A DNA stretch of 64,000 nucleotides from Pseudaquabacterium pictum (GTDB lineage Bacteria > Pseudomonadota > Gammaproteobacteria > Burkholderiales > Burkholderiaceae_C): the NCBI RefSeq assembly GCF_005403045.1, contig NZ_BJCL01000003.1, forward strand, positions 124,001 to 188,000. The letters are read 5' to 3'. Below, one piece after another: positions 35,360 through 60,718 of the stretch (its first letter is position 1; every line of letters begins with the position of its first letter). A program made the translations under genes and the position numbers. The notes beneath the pieces are model-generated. The model saw only the letters and a program-made list of their open reading frames with translations. It was not told the origin of the DNA and ran no database searches.

Positions 35360-37300
35360 TCAGCGGTCGACCGCTGCTGCCGGCGGGCTGGACGCCCGGC
35401 TGCGCAGGATGCCCGCAAAGTAGGCCGCCAGGCTGCCGCGGTCGGCCAGGGGCAGCACCAGGGCCACATGCTGGTCGGGCCGCACCACCACCATGCAGCC
35501 CGCGGAACGGTCGATGCCCCGCAGCGCGAAGATGTCGGCCTCCGGGCGCTGGTCGGCGCAGAACACCTTCTCGTAGTCGCGCAGGCCGTAGGCACCCACC
35601 GGCGGCCGCAGCAGCGCCGGCATCGCGTTGAAATCCAGCGCGCGGAAGCCCTGCTGGAACACCGCCCGGGTGTCGATCACCGCGTCGATGTCCTCGCCCG
35701 GCGCGGTGTGGCGGCGCAGGGGTGATGCCGTGTCGTCGGCCAGCCAGGCGCACAGGCTGGCCAGCGTGCCGCCGGCTCGGCCGTCGTCGCCCGCCGGGGC
35801 GAACAGGAACAGCCGGAAGCGCGCATCGGCCTCGATGCAGTGGCCCAGCTGCATCGGCCGGGCGTCGGCCAGCCGCACCACCGGAGCCGAGTGCAGGCGC
35901 ATGCCGATGTCGAAACCGCTGGCCAGATCCTGGTGGGTGGCCACGCCGGTCAGCAGGCCGGGTTCGTAGCGCACGGTCAGGCCACAGGTGAAGGGCAGGT
36001 TCTGGACGAAGGCGCGAGCCACGTCCGGCAGGCCGTCGGTGGACGGTGCAGTGGTGCGGGCACCCACCACCCGCGACCAGGTGTGGTCGAAGTCCACCAG
36101 GGCCTGGGCCGCGGCGCGCCGTTCGCCGGTGTAGGTGTGCAGCAGGCCGGCATCGGCCCGGCCGGTCAGCACCGCGATCAGCTTCCAGCCCAGGTTGAAG
36201 GTGTCGCCCATCGACACGTTCATGCCCTGGCCTGCCTTGGGGCTGTGGGTGTGGCAGGCATCGCCGGCCAGCAGCACCCGCGGCGTGCGGCGGGCCGCCT
36301 GGCCGGCCGGCACATCGTCGAAGGTGTCGGTCAGCCGGTGGCCGATCTCGTAGATCGACCACCAGACCACCTCCTTCACCTCCAGCTGGAAGGGCGCCAG
36401 GATGTGCTGCGCCTTGGCGATGATGTCCGCCGCGGCCAGGCCGCGGTCGGCCACCCGCTCGTGGTCGGCCAGCTGGTCCATCTCCACATACAGGCGAACC
36501 AGGTGGCCGCCCTCGCGCGGCAGCACCATCAGCGTGCCCTGGTCCTGCGAACGCACGAAGCTCTTCATCCGCCAGTCGGGGAAGTCGGTCACCGCCAGCA
36601 GGTCGATCACGCCCCAGGCCTGGTGGGCCGCATCGCCGTGCAGCGCGCCACCGATGGCACTGCGGACGGTCGAGCGGGCACCGTCGCAGCCGATGACGTA
36701 GTTCGCGCGCACGGTGTGGGTCTGGCCGGCGCGCTCCGGCGCGGTGTGGGCCAGGGTGACGGTGACCGGATGGTCGTCGGTGCCGGGGTCGACCGTGAGC
36801 CCCGCCACCTTCAGGCCCAGGTCGGGCACCAGGCGGCTGGGCGACTGGCGCATCTGCGCGAGGAACAGGTCATGCACCCGCGCCTGGTTGATCAGCACAT
36901 GCGGCATCTCCGAGATGCCGTCGGGCACGTCCTGCACCCGGGCCACGCGGTCGAGCTGGCGGTTGTCAGCCCCGGGTGCCCAGAAGGTGGTCTCGTTGAT
37001 CCACACCGCCTCGCGCATCACCTGCTCGGCAAAGCCGAAGGCCTGGAACATCTCCATCGAGCGCACGCTGATGCCGTCGGCCTGGCCCTTCTCCATCGGC
37101 GCCAGCTTGGGCTCGACCAGCATGGTGCGGATCTGCGGGAAGCGGGCCAGCTGCGCCGCCAGGCACAGGCCGGCCGGGCCCGAGCCGGCGATCAGCACAT
37201 CCACCTCGGTGGGCAGCGGGTCGCCCGCGCGGCGGTGGCCGGGGGCGGCGGGCTGCAGGTCGGGGTCGCCGGGCCGGAAGCCGTCGCGGTGGTATTGCAT
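35360..37300 (-). CDS. mobA: FAD-dependent aromatic hydroxylase (3-hydroxybenzoate 4-monooxygenase-like)
   Basis: A 646-residue class A flavoprotein monooxygenase. Rossmann motif VDVLIAGSGPAGLCLAAQLA near the N-terminus, DG motif YVIGCDGARSTVRSAIG, and GD motif LLAGDACHTHSPKAGQGMNV. The thioredoxin-like C-terminal domain of phenol hydroxylase-type enzymes ends the protein (GCMVVVRPDQHVALVLPL). Length and the QYHRDGFRPGDP start match MobA-type enzymes, which hydroxylate 3-hydroxybenzoate to protocatechuate with NADPH and O2. A divergent MarR gene and an AT-rich palindrome in the gap support a mob-like unit. The exact substrate needs testing. Confidence 0.85.
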   Translation of the reverse strand: MQYHRDGFRPGDPDLQPAAPGHRRAGDPLPTEVDVLIAGSGPAGLCLAAQLARFPQIRTMLVEPKLAPMEKGQADGISVRSMEMFQAFGFAEQVMREAVWINETTFWAPGADNRQLDRVARVQDVPDGISEMPHVLINQARVHDLFLAQMRQSPSRLVPDLGLKVAGLTVDPGTDDHPVTVTLAHTAPERAGQTHTVRANYVIGCDGARSTVRSAIGGALHGDAAHQAWGVIDLLAVTDFPDWRMKSFVRSQDQGTLMVLPREGGHLVRLYVEMDQLADHERVADRGLAAADIIAKAQHILAPFQLEVKEVVWWSIYEIGHRLTDTFDDVPAGQAARRTPRVLLAGDACHTHSPKAGQGMNVSMGDTFNLGWKLIAVLTGRADAGLLHTYTGERRAAAQALVDFDHTWSRVVGARTTAPSTDGLPDVARAFVQNLPFTCGLTVRYEPGLLTGVATHQDLASGFDIGMRLHSAPVVRLADARPMQLGHCIEADARFRLFLFAPAGDDGRAGGTLASLCAWLADDTASPLRRHTAPGEDIDAVIDTRAVFQQGFRALDFNAMPALLRPPVGAYGLRDYEKVFCADQRPEADIFALRGIDRSAGCMVVVRPDQHVALVLPLADRGSLAAYFAGILRSRASSPPAAAVDR

Positions 37301-37334
37301 GGTGTCTCCGTGCCGTCGTGGATCAATAGTATGT

Positions 37335-37364
37335 ATGCATATCATATGCATGCAACGCTACACT
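37335..37364. promoter_or_regulatory. Divergent mobA/mobR control region with palindromic operator
   Basis: A perfect inverted repeat ATGCATAT-C-ATATGCAT spans 37335-37351 in an AT-rich island. On the minus strand TTGCAT and TACTAT, spaced 18 nt, flank it and would be the hydroxylase promoter, with the palindrome inside the spacer. On the plus strand TACACT (37359-37364) could be the -10 of the MarR gene. A bound repressor would block both. Confidence 0.75.
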
Positions 37365-52359: not shown

Positions 52360-53733
52360 ATGTCCGGTTCCACCACCTCCCAGGGTTTCGCCTTCAACCG
52401 CGGCCAGTTCCAGCAGATCATCGATGACACGCTGGCCATCGCGAAGGACCTGGGTGCCAGCGATGCCGCGGCCGAGGTGAGCGAAGGCGCCGGCCTGTCG
52501 GTGTCGGTGCGGCTGGGCGAGATCGAGAACGTCGAGCGCAACCGCGACAAGAGTCTGGGCGTCACCGTCTATCTGGGGCAGCGCCGCGGCAATGCCAGCA
52601 CCAGCGATTTCTTCGCCGCCGCGCTGCAGCAGACGGTGCGCGCCGCCTACGACATCGCCCGCTTCACCGCCGAAGATCCGGCCGCCGGCCTGCCCGATGC
52701 CGAAGACCTGGCCACGCCCGACATCGCCGGCATCGATCTCGACCTGTTCCACCCCTGGCTGGTGGATGCCGACGGCGCCGCCGCGCTGGCCCGCCGCTGC
52801 GAGGAGGCGGCCCTGGCCACCAGCCCGAAGATCAGCAACAGCGAGGGCGCCGGGGTGTCGGCACAACAGTCGCACTTCTGGGCCGGCAACAGCCGCGGCT
52901 TCCGCGGTGGTTATGCCAGCTCGCGCCATTCGCTGTCGGTGGCGCCGATCGCCGGCAAGGGCGCGGCGATGCAGCGCGACGCCTGGTACAGCAGCCAGCG
53001 CAACGCGATGGACCTGGCCTCGCCCGAGGCGGTGGGCCGCTATGCCGCTGAGCGGGCGCTGTCGCGGCTGAAGGGCCGCAAGGTGCCCACCTGCGAGGTG
53101 CCGGTGCTGTTCGAGAACACACTGGCTGCCGGCCTGCTGGGCAGCATGGTGGGCGCGCTCAGTGGTGGTGCGCTGTACCGCCGCGCCAGCTTCCTGATGG
53201 ACAGCGTGGGCACGGCCGTGCTGGCCGACCACCTGGATGTGGACGAGGACCCGCTGGTGCCGCGCGGCAAGGCCAGCGCCGCCTTCGACGACGAAGGTGT
53301 GCGCACCCGCAAGCGCCGGGTGGTCGACGGTGGCGTGGTGCAGGGCTACTTCCTGTCCAGCTACTCGGCGCGCAAGCTGGGCCTGCAGACCACCGGCCAT
53401 GCCGGCGGCGCCCAGAACCTGGTGCTGAGCAGCCGCCTCACCCGCCCGGGCGACCACCTCGACGAGATGCTGCGCAAGCTGCACCGCGGCCTGTTCGTGA
53501 CCGAGCTGATGGGCCAGGGCGTGAACGGCGTCACGGGCGACTACTCGCGCGGTGCGGCCGGCTACTGGGTGGAAGGCGGCCGCATCGTGCACCCGGTGCA
53601 TGAGGTGACGATCGCCGGCAACCTGAAGGACATGCTGCGCGCCATCGTGGCGGTGGGCGCCGACACCTATGTGTCGGGCGGCCGCACGGTGGGGTCGGTG
53701 CTGCTGGCGCGCATGAAGGTGGCCGGCAGCTGA
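52360..53733 (+). CDS. pmbA: Metalloprotease PmbA/TldE family
   Basis: A 457-residue protein, full family length. IIDDTLAIAKDLGASDAAAE, ISNSEGAGVSAQQSHFW, VPVLFENTLAAGLLGSMVGA, GKASAAFDDEGVRTRKRRVV and GAAGYWVEGGRIVHPVHEVT are PmbA/TldE landmarks. TldE itself has no metal motif; it pairs with TldD, not in the window, to process microcins and modified peptides and degrade CcdA. ATG 52360 is preferred to ATG 52327 because conserved sequence begins shortly after it. It is divergent from yjgA. Confidence 0.95.
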   Translation: MSGSTTSQGFAFNRGQFQQIIDDTLAIAKDLGASDAAAEVSEGAGLSVSVRLGEIENVERNRDKSLGVTVYLGQRRGNASTSDFFAAALQQTVRAAYDIARFTAEDPAAGLPDAEDLATPDIAGIDLDLFHPWLVDADGAAALARRCEEAALATSPKISNSEGAGVSAQQSHFWAGNSRGFRGGYASSRHSLSVAPIAGKGAAMQRDAWYSSQRNAMDLASPEAVGRYAAERALSRLKGRKVPTCEVPVLFENTLAAGLLGSMVGALSGGALYRRASFLMDSVGTAVLADHLDVDEDPLVPRGKASAAFDDEGVRTRKRRVVDGGVVQGYFLSSYSARKLGLQTTGHAGGAQNLVLSSRLTRPGDHLDEMLRKLHRGLFVTELMGQGVNGVTGDYSRGAAGYWVEGGRIVHPVHEVTIAGNLKDMLRAIVAVGADTYVSGGRTVGSVLLARMKVAGS

Positions 53734-53792
53734 CGGTGGCGGGTGCGCCCCGCACTGCAATGGTGTCCGGGTTTCACCGCCCGCTCCGAGGC

Positions 53793-53820
53793 AACCGGCC
53801 CCCCTAGAATGCGGCCGGTT
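53793..53820 (+). promoter_or_regulatory. Inverted repeat enclosing a -10 element before dctP
   Basis: AACCGGCC (53793-53800) and GGCCGGTT (53813-53820) form a perfect 8-bp inverted repeat around TAGAAT (53805-53810), a good -10 element about 39 nt before the dctP ATG. The -35 is poor. This fits an activator or repressor site at the dctP promoter. Confidence 0.5.
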
Positions 53821-53848
53821 TGAATGCAAACTTGCCTAGGAGATCTGC

Positions 53849-54931
53849 ATGGAACGTCGATTGTTTGTCCGTGGTGCCGGCCTGGCCGGGGTCCTCGCCG
53901 CGGGCACTGCGCCTGCCATCGTGCATGCGCAAGCCAACCTGCGCTGGCGCCTCACCTCGAGCTTCCCGAAGGCGCTCGACACGCTGTTCGGCGTGAACGA
54001 CATCTTCGCCGCCAAGGTGAAGGAACTGACCGGTGGCAAGTTCGTCATCACCACCCATGCCCCGGGTGAACTGGTGCCCGCCTTCGGCGTGGTCGACGCC
54101 ATCCAGGCCGGCACCGTGGAAATGGCCAACACCGCGCCGTACTACTTCTTCGGCAAGGACGAGACCTTCGCACTGGGCTGCGCCATCCCCTTCGGCCTGA
54201 ACAGCCGGCAGATGACGGCCTGGGCCTATGAAGGCAACGGCCTGAAGCTGATGCGCGATTTCTACCGCCAGTACAACATCATCAACTTCCCGATGGGCAA
54301 CACCGGCGCGCAGATGGGCGGCTGGTTCCGCAAGCCCATCGCCTCGCTGGCCGACTTCAAGGGCCTGAAGTTCCGCGTCGGCGGCTTCGCCGGCAAGGTG
54401 GTCGAGCGCATCGGCGGCGTGCCGCAGAACATCCCCGGCGGCGAGATCTACCAGGCGCTGGAAAAGGGCACGATCGACGCGGCCGAGTGGGTGGGCCCGT
54501 ACGACGACCAGAAGCTGGGCTTCTACAAGGTGGCCCAGAACTACGCCTATCCGGGCTGGTGGGAAGGCGGCCCGCAGCTGGACCTGTACGTCAACACCAA
54601 GGCCTATGACGGCCTGAGCGCCGAGTACAAGGCGGTGATCGAGTGCGCGGCGGCCTACGCCCACACCGACATGCAGGCCAAGTACGACGGCAAGAACGCC
54701 GCCGCGCTGAAGACCCTGGTGGCCGGCGGTGCCAAGCTGTTCCCGTTCCCGAAGGACCTGATGGACGCGGCCTTCAAGGAGTCGATGGCGCTGTACAGCG
54801 ACATCTCGGCCAAGAACCCGAACTGGAAGAAGGTCTACGAGGACTACTCGAAGTTCCGCGCCGAGCAGAACCTGTGGTTCCGCTTCACCGAGGCCACCTT
54901 CGACGACTTCATGCAGCGCCAGAAGCTGTGA
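53849..54931 (+). CDS. dctP: TRAP transporter substrate-binding protein DctP
   Basis: A 360-residue periplasmic receptor. The signal MERRLFVRGAGLAGVLAAGT resembles a twin-arginine signal (R-R-L-F). The mature domain has RLTSSFPKALDTLFGVNDIF and DFKGLKFRVGGFAGKVVERI; the Arg in KFRVGG is the usual carboxylate-binding residue. IYQALEKGTIDAAEWVGPYD is the TRAP receptor signature. WEGGPQLDLYVNTKAYDGL matches the TakP/2-keto-acid subgroup. AGGAG precedes the ATG and a terminator follows the stop. It is convergent with the dctQ-dctM-rdhA operon and is presumably its receptor. The ligand is a carboxylate. Confidence 0.95.
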   Translation: MERRLFVRGAGLAGVLAAGTAPAIVHAQANLRWRLTSSFPKALDTLFGVNDIFAAKVKELTGGKFVITTHAPGELVPAFGVVDAIQAGTVEMANTAPYYFFGKDETFALGCAIPFGLNSRQMTAWAYEGNGLKLMRDFYRQYNIINFPMGNTGAQMGGWFRKPIASLADFKGLKFRVGGFAGKVVERIGGVPQNIPGGEIYQALEKGTIDAAEWVGPYDDQKLGFYKVAQNYAYPGWWEGGPQLDLYVNTKAYDGLSAEYKAVIECAAAYAHTDMQAKYDGKNAAALKTLVAGGAKLFPFPKDLMDAAFKESMALYSDISAKNPNWKKVYEDYSKFRAEQNLWFRFTEATFDDFMQRQKL

Positions 54932-54968
54932 TGCCGCGGCGGCCGCATGGCCGCCTGCCGCTGCAACC

Positions 54969-54993
54969 AGGCCCCGCACAGCGGGGCCTTTTT
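54969..54993 (+). terminator. Intrinsic terminator of dctP
   Basis: AGGCCCCGC-ACA-GCGGGGCCT followed by TTTTTC, 38 nt past the dctP stop. The T-run is on the plus strand only. It ends exactly at the stop codon of the convergent dehalogenase-like gene. Confidence 0.93.
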
Positions 54994-57098
54994 CATGGGC
55001 GCGTGGCGGGCCCGCGGCGGCGCCGGCGGGCGGCTGCCGGGGTTTCGGACGCGGCGGCGGCGGCCAGGCCGGCGGCGCGGTCCAGCGGCACGGTGGTGGC
55101 CAGCGTGGTGCCGCCGGCCGGCTGCAGCGACGGCGGGAAGAACGCCAGCTTCTGCCCGGCAGCCAGTTTGGCTTCGCGCCCGGGCGAGAGGTCGCGGGCG
55201 TTGGTGCCGGCCGCTGGCGCCTGCACCACGCCATCCACGATCTCCAGATCGAACCACCAGCGCTTGACCGGGTTGCGCACACCGCCGCCGCTGGCGTCGT
55301 CATGGTCGATCAGCTGCCGGCGGGTGGCCGGCACGTCGATCGACAGCCACAGCAGCCGGTCGGACTCGACCAGGTCCTCGCGGTTGTAGGGGCAGGTCTT
55401 CATGCAGCGGCCGCAGGCCGAGCCCTTCATGTTGGTCAGCCGGTACTTGCCGCACTTCTCGACATCGGGCTTCCAGATCTCGTAGCCGTTGAACATCACC
55501 TTCGGGCCGAAGGGAATCGCGTTGCACGGGCATTCACGCGCGCACTTGCGGCACAGGTTGCACACCGCCTGCAGGCCGAAGTCGACCGGCTGGTCCGGCA
55601 CCAGCGGCAGGCTGGTGGTGATGAGCACCGACTTCGACCGCGGGCCGAGGAACGGGTTGAGCACCTGCTCGCCGATGCGCGACAGCTCGCCCAGCCCGGC
55701 CATCAGCACCGCCGGGATGTGCAGCAGCTCCGAGTGCGCATTCGAGTGCACCCGCGCCGAATGCCCCAGCCGCCGCAGGTGGGCCGCCATCACGCCGGCC
55801 AGCAGCGCGCCGCGCAGGTAGGCCCGCATCGACTGGGCGCCCGAGATCCAGTCGTCGCCCGAGGCGCCTTCCATCGTCTCGAAGCCCTGGTCGATCAGCA
55901 GCACGATGGCGAATGGGTGGTAGGCGTCGATGGCGCGGCCCTCGGCCTCGTCGTGCGAGTAGTACATCCAGGGCTCGGCGGCGCAGATGCCGACCAGGTC
56001 GGCACCCAGGAAGTGCGCCAGCGCCTTCACCGCCAGGCTGTTGTGCTCCGCACCGTCCAGCGGCGGCCCGATGCAGGTGGGCGGCAGCGGCGTGCGCGTG
56101 CCCTGCAGCGGCACCAGCCCGCGGATCAGCGGCGTCATCGCCCAGGCCAGCGGGTGCTTGACCGCGAAACGGCTACGCTCCTGCCGGGCCTTGTCGCCCA
56201 GGTCGCCGGCCAGCGCGCGGGTGAACAGGTCGGCGCGCTTCGGCACGCGCTGGATCTCGTCGCGCAGCACCAGGGTGGTGGGCTCGTCCACCCGCGGGAT
56301 GCGTTCCATCGGATGGCGGCCCAGGTGCAGCGGTCGCCGCGCCTGCTCGGCCGCGTCGAAGCCGGGGCGGGTGCCGCCCACGCCCATGTAGGCGTCGCTG
56401 TCGGGCCAGCCCAGCGGCGTGCCGGGGGCGATGGGAAGGTCGGTGGCCATGGCGCAGGTGGTGGTCACTGCGCCCACGCGGAAGCCGTTGCCGGTGAAGG
56501 GCATGGCCAGCACGCCGTCCATCGCCAGGGCGATGCCGGCGCGCTGGGCCAGGGCGCACAGGTCCACCTGACTGTGGCCGTGCACATGGCCCTGCGCCGC
56601 CCAGCCCAGGCTGCGCAGGTAGCCGGCCAGCACCACCGCCACTTCGGCGCAGCGCAGGTCGGTGCGGGCGGCGTTGCTGCCGGCCGTCCAGGCGGCGCCC
56701 GGCTCGTCGGCATGGGCCTCGCGGCTGAACTCGACCAGGAAGACCAGCGCGTGGGTGTGGCCGGCGCAGGGGCCGTCTGCCACCTCGGCGGGCTGCAGCG
56801 TGCACACGCCGGCCAGCGTGGCGTCCAGGAAGCAGGCGGTGGCCTTCAGGTTGTCGGCGCGGGCCTGCAGATCGTCCGGCACCGGCGCCTGGGTGGCGGC
56901 CACGGCGCCCGCCAGGTGGCCGGCACACAGCGCCAGGTACTCCGGCACCACCGCAGCAACGGCTAGGGCGCCCGCGGTGGTGTCGTCACCAGGCTGCCGT
57001 GCCGGCAGTTCCGGAGCGCCGGCCTGCCGTGGCAACCGCTCGGCGGGCAGCGGCCCCAGGTGCACCGGGCGCTGGCGGTGGGAGTGCAGCCGCGCCAT
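54993..57098 (-). CDS. rdhA: Reductive dehalogenase-like cobalamin/4Fe-4S protein (cytoplasmic, catabolic type)
   Basis: A 701-residue protein. Two 4Fe-4S motifs are present: C513-X2-C516-X2-C519-X3-C523 followed by P, and C549-X12-C562-X2-C565-X3-C569 followed by P. The preceding cobalamin-type domain (~350-500) has AGLGELSRIGEQVLNPFLGP and ITTSLPLVPDQPVDFG, conserved in RdhA proteins. A degenerate copy lies at ~80-225 (compare SLPL with ATDLPI), an internal duplication as in NpRdhA-type enzymes (~700 residues). No Tat signal and no RdhB anchor gene, so it is cytoplasmic and not respiratory. No fused reductase domain at the C-terminus; the last ~80 residues are Ala/Arg-rich. QueG is excluded by length and duplication. 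It begins 19 nt after dctM. Confidence 0.82.
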   Translation of the reverse strand: MARLHSHRQRPVHLGPLPAERLPRQAGAPELPARQPGDDTTAGALAVAAVVPEYLALCAGHLAGAVAATQAPVPDDLQARADNLKATACFLDATLAGVCTLQPAEVADGPCAGHTHALVFLVEFSREAHADEPGAAWTAGSNAARTDLRCAEVAVVLAGYLRSLGWAAQGHVHGHSQVDLCALAQRAGIALAMDGVLAMPFTGNGFRVGAVTTTCAMATDLPIAPGTPLGWPDSDAYMGVGGTRPGFDAAEQARRPLHLGRHPMERIPRVDEPTTLVLRDEIQRVPKRADLFTRALAGDLGDKARQERSRFAVKHPLAWAMTPLIRGLVPLQGTRTPLPPTCIGPPLDGAEHNSLAVKALAHFLGADLVGICAAEPWMYYSHDEAEGRAIDAYHPFAIVLLIDQGFETMEGASGDDWISGAQSMRAYLRGALLAGVMAAHLRRLGHSARVHSNAHSELLHIPAVLMAGLGELSRIGEQVLNPFLGPRSKSVLITTSLPLVPDQPVDFGLQAVCNLCRKCARECPCNAIPFGPKVMFNGYEIWKPDVEKCGKYRLTNMKGSACGRCMKTCPYNREDLVESDRLLWLSIDVPATRRQLIDHDDASGGGVRNPVKRWWFDLEIVDGVVQAPAAGTNARDLSPGREAKLAAGQKLAFFPPSLQPAGGTTLATTVPLDRAAGLAAAAASETPAAARRRRRGPATRP

Positions 57099-57117
57099 GG
57101 CCCGGGCCTGCTGCCGG

Positions 57118-58929
57118 CTACTTCTTGCCGGCTTCCTTGTTCACCGATTCCAGCAGCGCCTTCATCGGGTCTTCGTTGTTCTCGGTGGACGACGGCGCGG
57201 TGGCACCCGGGGCGCTGGCATCGATGCCGGGCATCGGCGCCGGCGCCTCTCGCTCAGGCAGCCCCATGCTCTCCAGCGCCTTGTCGGCATCGATCTGCAC
57301 CGTGCTGCCGATGCCACCGGTGACCATGCCGGGGAAGGCGATGACCGCCGCCACCATGATCAGCTGCAGGCAGATGAAGGCGATCGAGCCCTTGTAGATC
57401 TGGGCCGTGGTCACCGCCGGGATGGTGGCGCCGGTGATGCGGTCCTTGTAGTCGGCCTTGGCGGCCACGCTGCGCAGGTAGAACAGCGCAAAGCCGAACG
57501 GCGGTGTCAGGAAGGAGGTTTGCAGGTTCATCGCCAGCACCACGCCGAACCACACCATGATGGCGTCGATCGGCGTGCCGGGCGGGAACAGCTCGGGCAG
57601 GATCTTCTCGGCCACCGGCATCAGGATCGGGATCACGATGAAGGCGATCTCGAAGAAGTCGATGAAGCAGCCCAGGATGAACACCAGGATGTTCACCACG
57701 ATCAGGAAGCCCAGCGCGCCGCCAGGCAGCTTGTCGAACAGGTGCTCGACCCAGATGTGCCCGTCGGCCGCATTGAAGGTGAAGCTGAACACCGTGCTGC
57801 CGATCAGGATGAACAGCACGAAGGTGGCCAGCTTGGCGGTGTTGTCCAGCGCCTGGTGCATCAGCGCGCCGCTGAGCTTGCGCCGGCCCATCGCCATCAG
57901 CAGCGCACCCAGGGCGCCCATGGCGCCGCCTTCGGTGGGCGTGGCCACGCCCAGGAAGATGGTGCCCAGCACCAGGAAGATCAGCACCAGCGGCGGGATC
58001 AGCACATAGGTGAAGCGCTCGGCCAGCTTCGACAGCAGGCCCATGCGCGTCACGCTGTTGACGATGGCCAGGCCCAGCGCCAGGAACGAGGCCACGGTCA
58101 GCGACATGATCAGCACTTCATCACCCGGCGACGGGTTGGTGCGGCCCAGCCAGGCCTTGAACACGCTGTCATGCACCTGGGACCAGGCGTAGGCAGCCGC
58201 GCCGCACACGGCCAGCAGCACCAGCAGCGAGACATGGCCCGAGGCGCCATTGGCCTCGCGGTAGATGCGCGCCTCCTGCGGCAGCGCCGGCACCCACTTG
58301 GGCCGCACGAAGGCCACCACCGCGATGAACACGATGTACAGCGCCACCAGCAGCAGGCCGGGGATCATGGCGCCGGCGTACATGTCGCCCACGCTGCGGC
58401 CCATCTGGTCGGCCAGCACGATCAGCACCAGGCTGGGCGGGATGGCTTGCGCCAGCGTGCCGCTCGCGGTGATGGTGCCGGTGGCGATGGTGCGGTTGTA
58501 GCCGTAGCGCAGCATGATGGGCAGCGAGATCAGGCCCATGCTGATCACCGCCGCGGCCACCACACCGGTGGTGGCGGCCAGCAGCGCGCCCACCAGGATC
58601 ACCGCCACCGCCAGGCCGCCGCGCAGCGGGCCGAACACCTGGCCCACCGTCTCGAGCAGATCCTCGGCCATGCCGGACCGTTCGAGGATGATGCCCATGA
58701 AGGTGAAGAACGGAATCGCCAGCAGGGTGTCGTTCTGCATGATGCCGAACACCCGCTGCGGCAGCGCCTGGAACAGGCTGGTGGGGAACAGGCCCACCTC
58801 CATGCCGATGTAGCCGAACAGCAGTCCGGTGGCCGCCAGGCCGAAGGCCACCGGAATGCCGGTGAGCAGGAACACGAACAAGCCGCCAAACAGCAGCGGC
58901 ACGAAGTTCTGGGTGATGAATTCGGTCAT
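57118..58929 (-). CDS. dctM: TRAP transporter large permease DctM (long form)
   Basis: A 603-residue membrane protein of the DctM/ion-transporter family. FVPLLFGGLFVFLLTGIPVA, FGPLRGGLAVAVILVGALLA, PPSLVLIVLADQMGRSVGDM and GVATPTEGGAMGALGALLMA are signature regions (the last is the second GVATPTE-type hairpin). It exceeds the usual ~430 residues through an insertion of extra helices (~215-320) and a ~60-residue soluble C-terminal tail rich in Pro, Ala and Ser. This long form is known among TRAP carriers for keto acids. Its ATG is one base after the dctQ stop, and rdhA follows 19 nt downstream. Confidence 0.95.
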   Translation of the reverse strand: MTEFITQNFVPLLFGGLFVFLLTGIPVAFGLAATGLLFGYIGMEVGLFPTSLFQALPQRVFGIMQNDTLLAIPFFTFMGIILERSGMAEDLLETVGQVFGPLRGGLAVAVILVGALLAATTGVVAAAVISMGLISLPIMLRYGYNRTIATGTITASGTLAQAIPPSLVLIVLADQMGRSVGDMYAGAMIPGLLLVALYIVFIAVVAFVRPKWVPALPQEARIYREANGASGHVSLLVLLAVCGAAAYAWSQVHDSVFKAWLGRTNPSPGDEVLIMSLTVASFLALGLAIVNSVTRMGLLSKLAERFTYVLIPPLVLIFLVLGTIFLGVATPTEGGAMGALGALLMAMGRRKLSGALMHQALDNTAKLATFVLFILIGSTVFSFTFNAADGHIWVEHLFDKLPGGALGFLIVVNILVFILGCFIDFFEIAFIVIPILMPVAEKILPELFPPGTPIDAIMVWFGVVLAMNLQTSFLTPPFGFALFYLRSVAAKADYKDRITGATIPAVTTAQIYKGSIAFICLQLIMVAAVIAFPGMVTGGIGSTVQIDADKALESMGLPEREAPAPMPGIDASAPGATAPSSTENNEDPMKALLESVNKEAGKK

Positions 58930-58930
58930 G

Positions 58931-59548
58931 TCAGTTCAACTTGGCGGCGGCCAGCTTGGCTTCACGCTGGGCGGCTTCTTCGGCCAGCGCCTGGGCAAAC
59001 TTCTCTTCCTCGAGCTTGTCGTCGAACACGCTGAAGGGCTCGGCCAGGTGGCCGCTCAGGAAGGCGAAGCGCTTGATCAGCTCGCTGATGGCCTGCAGCG
59101 TCAGGATCGCGAAGCCCAGCGGCACCAGCAGCATCACCGGCCAGCGGATCAGGCCACCGGCGTTCTGGCTCATCTCGCCACTTTCCCAGGCGCGCATGAA
59201 CAGCGGCCAGCCCAGGTCGATCATGATGAGCGACAGCGGGATGGTGAAGACGATGATGCCGATGGCATCGATGATGGCGTTGGTGCGCTTGCTGAGCTTG
59301 TTGCTGATGAAGTCGATGCGCACATGGGCGTTCTTCAGCATCACATAGCCCACGCCGAGCATGAACACCGCGGCGAACAGGTACCACTGGATCTCCAGGA
59401 ACGCGTTCGAGCCGATGTTGAAGGCCTTGCGCACGATGGCGTTGGTGGCGCTGATCAGCACCGCCGCCAGCACCAGCCACATGGTGAGCTTGCCGATCAG
59501 CGTGTTCAGCGCGTCGATGGCGCGCGAGAGTTTCAAGAGCAGTTGCAC
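58931..59548 (-). CDS. dctQ: TRAP transporter small permease DctQ
   Basis: A 205-residue protein with four membrane helices: LTMWLVLAAVLISATNAIVR, AFLEIQWYLFAAVFMLGVGY, AIIDAIGIIVFTIPLSLIMI and WPVMLLVPLGFAILTLQAIS. LEIQWYLF and YVMLKNAHVRIDFI are conserved in DctQ. A soluble, charged ~45-residue tail (EEEKFAQALAEEAAQREAKL) follows. The start is GTG 59548 with AGGAG 6 nt upstream; the frame to 59611 lacks a ribosome site. First gene of dctQ-dctM-rdhA. Confidence 0.94.
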   Translation of the reverse strand: MQLLLKLSRAIDALNTLIGKLTMWLVLAAVLISATNAIVRKAFNIGSNAFLEIQWYLFAAVFMLGVGYVMLKNAHVRIDFISNKLSKRTNAIIDAIGIIVFTIPLSLIMIDLGWPLFMRAWESGEMSQNAGGLIRWPVMLLVPLGFAILTLQAISELIKRFAFLSGHLAEPFSVFDDKLEEEKFAQALAEEAAQREAKLAAAKLN

Positions 59549-59740
59549 GGGTTCTCCTGCAAGACGGTCTGGCGGGCGGGATGCAGGCCGGCGGGGCCGG
59601 CATCCACGCAAATCTGCGCAGGTCCATGGCGAACCTGCAACTGGGGCGCGACTGTACGCAAGCCTGGCGCGGCTTCGGCCGCAAAACCCCCGAACCCAGG
59701 GTAATCCCAGGCCAGTCGGGGCCCCCGGGCTGCGGGGCGG

Positions 59741-60718
59741 CTACATGAACAGGTGCTCGCCGGCGTTCTCGCCGCCCAGGATCACGTAGTTCACCTTCTT
59801 GAGATCGGTCAAGACGCGGCCGCCGGCATAGCTGATGCTGCTCTGCAGGTCTTCATGCATCTCGCGCAGGGTGTCGGCCAGCCTGCCCTTGACCGGCTCG
59901 AGGATGCGCTTGCCTTCCACATGCTTGTATTCGCCCTTGTTGAAGTCGCTGGCCGAGCCGTAGTACTCCTTGAACAGCTTGCCATCCACCTCCACCGTGG
60001 CGCCGGGTGACTCTTCATGGCCGGCAAACAGCGAGCCCACCATCACCATGGCGGCGCCGAAGCGCACGCTCTTGGCGATGTCGCCGTGGTGGCGGATGCC
60101 GCCGTCGGCCACGATCGGCTTGCTGGCCACCCGCGCACACCACTTCAGCGCGCTGAGCTGCCAGCCGCCGGTGCCGAAGCCGGTCTTCAGCCGGGTGATG
60201 CAGACCTTGCCCGGGCCGATGCCGACCTTGGTGGCGTCGGCGCCCCAGTTCTCCAGGTCGATCACGCCCTCGGGCGTGCCCACGTTGCCGGCGATGACGA
60301 AGGCATCGGGCAGCCGCTGCTTGATGTGGCCGATCATGCGCCGCACGCTTTCGGCATGGCCGTGGGCGATGTCGATGGTGATGTAGTCGGCGCCGATGCC
60401 GGTGGCCGCCAGCTGGTCGATCACCGCCATGTCGGCCGGCTTCACGCCGGCGCTGATCGACACGTACAGGCCCTTGTCGCGCATGCGGCGGGCGAAGGCC
60501 ACGCTGTCGAGGTCGAAGCGGTGCATCACGTAGAAGTGGCCGCTGGCGGCCAGCTGCTCGGTGATGGCCTCGTCGACCACCGTCTTCATGTTGGCCGGCA
60601 CCACCGGCAGCTTGAAGCGGCGCGGGCCGAACTGCACCGAGGTGTCGCACTCGGCGCGGCTGTCCACCCGGCACTGGCGGGGCAGCAGCAGGATGTTGTC
60701 GTAGTCGAAGATGTCCAT
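59741..60718 (-). CDS. guaC: GMP reductase
   Basis: A 325-residue TIM-barrel enzyme of the IMPDH/GMPR family without CBS domains. [20 protein letters not shown] starts it, and [20 protein letters not shown] has the catalytic Cys and the flap sequence of the GMP reductase type. [20 protein letters not shown] and [20 protein letters not shown] bind phosphate. It reductively deaminates GMP to IMP with NADPH in purine salvage. ATG 60718 is used; the frame to 60769 lacks homology. Single gene upstream of the TRAP operon on the same strand with a ~190-nt gap. Confidence 0.93.

Follow-up and report, generated by a model that had tools for sequence, protein, structure and literature searches.

A catabolic reductive dehalogenase gene, probably acquired, within an apparently older TRAP transporter locus of Pseudaquabacterium pictum

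Background

Does an importer whose genes adjoin that of a dehalogenase necessarily serve the dehalogenase? This question is raised by a locus of Pseudaquabacterium pictum lying within a stretch of 64,000 nucleotides (contig NZ_BJCL01000003.1 of assembly GCF_005403045.1, positions 124,001 to 188,000 of the forward strand; termed here the window), in which rdhA (54993-57098, minus strand), a gene for a reductive dehalogenase-like protein of 701 residues, is found among genes for a tripartite ATP-independent periplasmic (TRAP) transporter: the receptor gene dctP and the permease genes dctQ and dctM. According to the original prediction for this locus, the transporter is a dedicated carrier that delivers a halogenated carboxylate to the dehalogenase. 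The explanation favoured here, and considered quite probable, is that rdhA encodes an acquired ortho-halophenol dehalogenase that rides upon an older TRAP transcript, the transporter not having been made for it. A literature search at the level of titles, not all journals being covered, found no paper title naming this locus.

Results

The enzyme appears to be of an already known kind in an unusual place: on sequence and model, the assignment of RdhA as a full-length, unfused and cytoplasmic catabolic reductive dehalogenase of the NpRdhA type stands, in keeping with the class and the size of about 701 residues first proposed for it. Its score against the NCBIfam reductive dehalogenase model TIGR02486 is 166.7 bits, above the curated cut-off of 160.35 (the reference NpRdhA scores 171.8), and phmmer matches NpRdhA at E 2.3e-284 over residues 3-697 of RdhA, including the N-terminal vestigial domain. 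Structure prediction against NpRdhA, which had been put forward as a check, gave an AlphaFold2 model (built from 41 window and locus sequences; pLDDT 90.5, pTM 0.93) whose 14 best Foldseek matches are all NpRdhA chains, with 61% identity and query template-modelling scores (TMq) of 0.96-0.97 over 691-695 columns. Respiratory enzymes come next, at TMq 0.33-0.37 (about 0.35 for PceA), followed by QueG; a QueG-like enzyme, the best match that had been named as fatal to the prediction, was rejected, since QueG is matched far more weakly than NpRdhA (phmmer E 0.023, TM-score about 0.2). A respiratory reductive dehalogenase was likewise rejected, as it had been from the start: no twin-arginine pair was seen by eye in the first 40 residues, and no RdhB was found among the identified neighbour genes of rdhA, no search aimed at RdhB having been made. 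No reductase domain follows the 701 residues, so that electrons must come from another protein. The proposed PF13486 profile says nothing either way, because it fails to match not only the window protein but also NpRdhA and BhbA.

At the active site, RdhA residues Y427, K489, R553, S423, M424, F292 and N453 correspond to NpRdhA Y426, K488, R552, S422, M423, F291 and N452 (residues named and numbered as in the excerpted text of PMC7565698), and all nine cysteines of the NpRdhA Fe-S region (500-590), which serves two [4Fe-4S] clusters, are kept. The tyrosine and lysine are those originally pointed out; R487, the arginine proposed along with them, was wrongly assigned, the partner of NpRdhA Arg552 being R553. 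In an alignment of 82 sequences (78 from a set of 81 loci, three being set aside as they lacked a called frame, together with BhbA, a pair of fused proteins and one protein from genome G069), the residues at NpRdhA positions 426, 488 and 422 are Y, K and S in 82 of 82, and R552 is kept in 81, the exception being a gap.

On the minus strand, dctQ (58931-59611; Pfam DctQ 5.4e-19) is followed by dctM (57118-58929; large permease of 603 residues; Pfam DctM 4.8e-85) after 1 nt and, 19 nt beyond the dctM stop, by the start of rdhA, in the order and with the spacing first described. (The small permease gene dctQ starts at 59611 or, as is likelier judging from relatives, at an internal start near 59548.) From the 19-nt gap, rdhA is probably co-transcribed with dctQM as the last cistron, which agrees with the single transcript suggested earlier. 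The receptor gene dctP (53849-54931, plus strand; Pfam DctP 3.8e-56) is convergent to these three, and past it lies a terminator-like hairpin of nine pairs with a loop of 3 and a T run (54969-54989, plus strand); the convergent orientation and terminator of the original prediction thus hold, while the promoter it gave to dctP is unconfirmed, a consensus scan of 53700-59900 having returned 0 sigma-70-type sites (a promoter is still possible). The rdhA stop codon starts 3 nt past the hairpin. The gene takes up the space that separates dctM from this hairpin, a position from which it would use the transcription of the upstream dctQM operon. An Rfam search of the 64-kb window returned two tRNAs and nothing else. 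The gene order mogA-yjgA-pmbA-dctP-rdhA-dctM-dctQ-guaC is identical in the relative G010; given this and the homology of the genes, the locus is more than a chance arrangement.

The age of the arrangement was examined in 100 genomes, namely the window's own (G000) and 99 relatives. A close DctM (E 1e-150) occurs in 42 of these, at 45 places, and a DctP (E 1e-100) in 74; in 32 genomes dctP and dctM converge within 10 kb of each other, and at the other 13 DctM places DctP is on a different contig, far off or otherwise arranged. Within the 32 convergent blocks, rdhA is intact in two (G000 and G010), present as a remnant in one (G006) and absent from 29, of which 28 have gaps of 63-942 bp, too short to hold rdhA, while the gap of the remaining one (G046) is 7.6 kb long and contains other genes. 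Because so many convergent blocks are without rdhA, the TRAP locus is taken to be older than rdhA and vertically kept; wherever its flanking genes could be found, they are the same mogA, yjgA, pmbA and guaC. The conserved dctQM-rdhA synteny to which the original prediction had looked is confined to G010, plus the remnant in G006. In a member of the same genus (G016), the TRAP block and a 74% rdhA are on separate contigs, and in two further members (G020 and G011) rdhA is again on a different contig from the TRAP block; the rdhA frames of these two (L019 and L020) are 1074-1075 residues long, like the fused kind, instead of short.

The G006 remnant (L021, G006:C284, 6556-7132), which lies between dctP and dctM, keeps its start and has a large internal deletion and broken frames, this being a draft genome of 88% completeness in which an assembly fault is possible. 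Beside it, dctP and the on-contig part of dctM are still open. Most simply, rdhA would have entered the TRAP locus once, before the split of G000, G010 and G006, and then decayed in G006. Insertion by a mobile element was rejected, just short imperfect repeats being present in 54900-57200 (the ends may have decayed). In 15 dctP-dctM gaps, a strict search returned a perfect stem of at least six pairs for all but that of G019 (14 of 15), and a T run comes straight after the best stem in 8 of the 15. The G046 gap (L100, G046:C14, 1119-8703) holds a block of membrane-protein genes, Mrp-type antiporter-like by eye, and is an example of how the dctP-dctM gap may repeatedly take up cargo. Tandem dctP pairs occur at or near the TRAP locus in G004, G012, G053 and G097.

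A gene that decays in one relative might be no more than transient cargo that is being lost, poorly or not expressed, with a functionless place in the TRAP operon. Such an explanation, which would also accommodate the scarcity of rdhA (a match at E 1e-20 in just 10 of the 100 genomes, several of them partial) and the lack of a clear ribosome site upstream of it by eye, is nonetheless rather improbable. Between the window and G010, rdhA has a ratio of nonsynonymous to synonymous substitution rates (dN/dS) of 0.18 (697 codons), within the 0.07-0.25 of five neighbour genes, and its dS of 0.286 is similar to that of pmbA (0.287; 0.12-0.29 for the five); moreover, it has no stop codons and has lost no catalytic residues. 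Selection maintains rdhA in both genomes, and the gene was already in place in their common ancestor.

What the carrier moves is suggested by its receptor. The closest solved relative of DctP, with homology over the whole length, is TakP (2HZK; E 1e-118), which, as stated in an excerpt of PMC1839085, binds 2-oxo acids together with a cation. DctP Y99, Q155, R176, E213, W214 and E239 correspond to TakP Tyr100, Gln156, Arg177, Glu214, Trp215 and Glu240, that is, to all six sodium-pyruvate residues; because DctP is TakP-like in this respect, a 2-oxo acid is the likelier TRAP cargo. The carrier need not move the substrate of RdhA. A bolder reading would give the two a common substrate in the 2-oxo acid of a halotyrosine, a 4-hydroxyphenylpyruvate bearing halogen: the receptor would bind it by its 2-oxo acid end, and RdhA by its ortho-halophenol end. 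The positive evidence for this consists solely of the two recognition motifs, and it is regarded as a long shot; if true, an old 2-oxo acid importer would have been recruited for halotyrosine salvage by the insertion of a single gene.

A scan of 84,980 genomes yielded 362 rdhA relatives, for the best 80 of which neighbours were counted. One of these 80 loci, that of a close relative of the window (L109), has TRAP genes 1.5 kb or less from rdhA; 1.5 kb on both sides of rdhA is present in just 63 of the 80. Within 3 kb there are additionally a weak DctM (L183) and two DctP (L143, which is Nitratireductor pacificus, and L147); within 6 kb, DctP is found at six loci. In a quick tree of 82 rows, window RdhA groups with L109 (support 100) and then with L116, a Rubrivivax metagenome-assembled genome (95). 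Unfused NpRdhA-type genes occur in many Burkholderiales, including Limnohabitans, in changing neighbourhoods, and a plasmid search brought up 10 records, none of which reaches 60% identity.

Discussion

The favoured explanation, with rdhA as an acquired passenger of the dctQM transcript, may be set out as follows. RdhA would be a cytoplasmic enzyme, dependent on cobalamin and two [4Fe-4S] clusters, that most likely takes off a halogen standing ortho to a phenolic OH, as in 3,5-dihalo-4-hydroxybenzoate; by analogy with NpRdhA, cob(I)alamin would attack the halogen, with S423, K489 and R553 holding the phenol oxygen and Y427 donating a proton. A single acquisition, by the common ancestor of three close relatives, would have placed the gene in a host locus of older, vertically kept TRAP genes with a 2-oxo acid type receptor, in the space separating dctM from the hairpin past dctP; there it would probably be read as the last cistron. 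Electrons would probably come from an unlinked host ferredoxin and ferredoxin reductase: none are linked among the neighbours of window rdhA, and the genome holds unlinked homologues of a 2Fe-2S ferredoxin (44%, E 1.7e-19) and of a ferredoxin reductase (44%, E 5.4e-86). A linked reductase and ferredoxins are not defining for the class, being stated for only some members in the excerpted text of PMC10463259. The product 4-hydroxybenzoate could pass to chromosomal PobA (653.9 bits, over its cut-off of 538.7), through which the host can probably use this compound. Within the window, the gene at 35360-37351 (minus strand) encodes a FAD monooxygenase of the phenol 2-monooxygenase subfamily PRK08294 (930 bits). 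Of the mob-like hydroxybenzoate pair noticed earlier at 35-38 kb, this match fits the mobA-like gene without proving it, and no link to rdhA was found.

The systems to which this locus may be compared each share some of its features. NpRdhA of N. pacificus pht-3B (PDB 4RAS, 6ZXU, 6ZXX, 6ZY1) is like window RdhA in length, fold and lack of a fused reductase, and shares its catalytic Y, K, R, S, M and F and its Fe-S cysteines; the two differ at four pocket or entrance positions, and NpRdhA clusters with a ferredoxin reductase and two ferredoxins (excerpt of PMC10463259; open reading frames), whereas window rdhA sits in a TRAP locus. BhbA, from plasmid pBHB of Comamonas sp. 7D-2, belongs to the same enzyme family and has a periplasmic carboxylate receptor gene directly adjoining; unlike window RdhA it has 1071 residues and a fused reductase, the adjoining receptor is of the TctC kind rather than TRAP, and the plasmid carries protocatechuate dioxygenase genes. 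JtRdhA of Jhaorihella thermophila is, in the part of PMC10463259 that describes it, of the catabolic aerobic type and shares F291, S422, M423, Y426, K488 and R552; it differs in its fusion to a PDOR-like reductase and is about 39% identical to NpRdhA. Finally, TakPQM, the 2-oxo acid TRAP system of Rhodobacter sphaeroides, has the whole-length receptor homology and six residues described above; the window differs from it in having dctP convergent to dctQM, and for the window receptor a 2-oxo acid is the predicted ligand.

A number of observations weigh against the passenger explanation. Some concern the enzyme: the G010 RdhA scores 156.5 bits against TIGR02486, slightly below the cut-off, and at four pocket or entrance positions NpRdhA F290, K307, P311 and A419 are replaced by L291, R308, A312 and G420, so that the exact substrate of RdhA is not fixed. 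At position 419, which borders the second halogen in NpRdhA (excerpt of PMC7565698), NpRdhA is itself the exception, G occurring in 68 and A in 11 of the 82 aligned sequences; a glycine there may widen the place of the second halogen. These differences, and the fact that RdhA function is inferred from homology, leave room for a class III cobalamin enzyme acting on something other than an organohalide, which is very improbable for a protein 61% identical to a proven dehalogenase, with identical phenol-binding and proton-donor residues and a weak match to QueG. Others concern the cofactor: a cobalamin riboswitch in the genome adjoins a BtuB-like gene whose product, at 432.7 bits, is below its cut-off of 599.7, and the two GATase_3 matches within 12 kb of this riboswitch and gene are no proof of B12 synthesis, since GATase_3, the marker used, matches 14 of 14 control genomes.

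The remainder concern uptake. TctC-type receptor genes lie within 1 kb of rdhA at 13 of the 80 loci (15 hits, where their density 1-10 kb away at these loci would predict 2.8; Poisson P 2.5e-7, a value made too small by the shared ancestry of the loci); one of these (L165) is uncertain, overlapping the rdhA frame, and another (L136) is in two pieces. This adjacency speaks for uptake and dehalogenation being coupled in some way, and as a dedicated uptake partner a TctC-type neighbour is a better candidate than TRAP. Furthermore, a TRAP-RdhA link may recur: the NpRdhA locus has a DctP-like gene upstream, at a distance of about 3 kb, and in genome G069 (L018, G069:C50, 1-5214), which belongs to a different family of the order, dctP, dctQ, dctM and rdhA follow one another on a single strand, 52 nt separating dctM from rdhA. 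That link is independent of the window's; the best match of its receptor is not TakP-like, and its rdhA, which is not among the 80 loci, runs off the contig, so that a fused domain is possible.

It is from such cases, from the same-strand 19-nt spacing and the selection on rdhA in the window, from the DctP-like genes about 3 kb from rdhA in N. pacificus and Rhodoplanes serenus, and from the TctC-type neighbour of BhbA that one could argue for importer and dehalogenase forming a single functional operon, in which TRAP delivers a halogenated hydroxybenzoate. This remains an unlikely reading. In 29 of 32 genomes the block has no rdhA, and after the loss of rdhA in G006 it stayed open as far as its dctP and on-contig dctM go; TRAP genes are close to rdhA at one of 80 loci; and the receptor keeps the full TakP sodium-pyruvate set. 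On the block, locus and residue evidence, a dedicated haloacid TRAP carrier, as first proposed, was rejected as the best reading.

Conclusions

The co-location of an enzyme and a transporter can mislead, since the importer here apparently predates the gene of the enzyme beside it. Given that unfused NpRdhA-type genes are present in many Burkholderiales, the removal of halophenols by common freshwater bacteria becomes testable.

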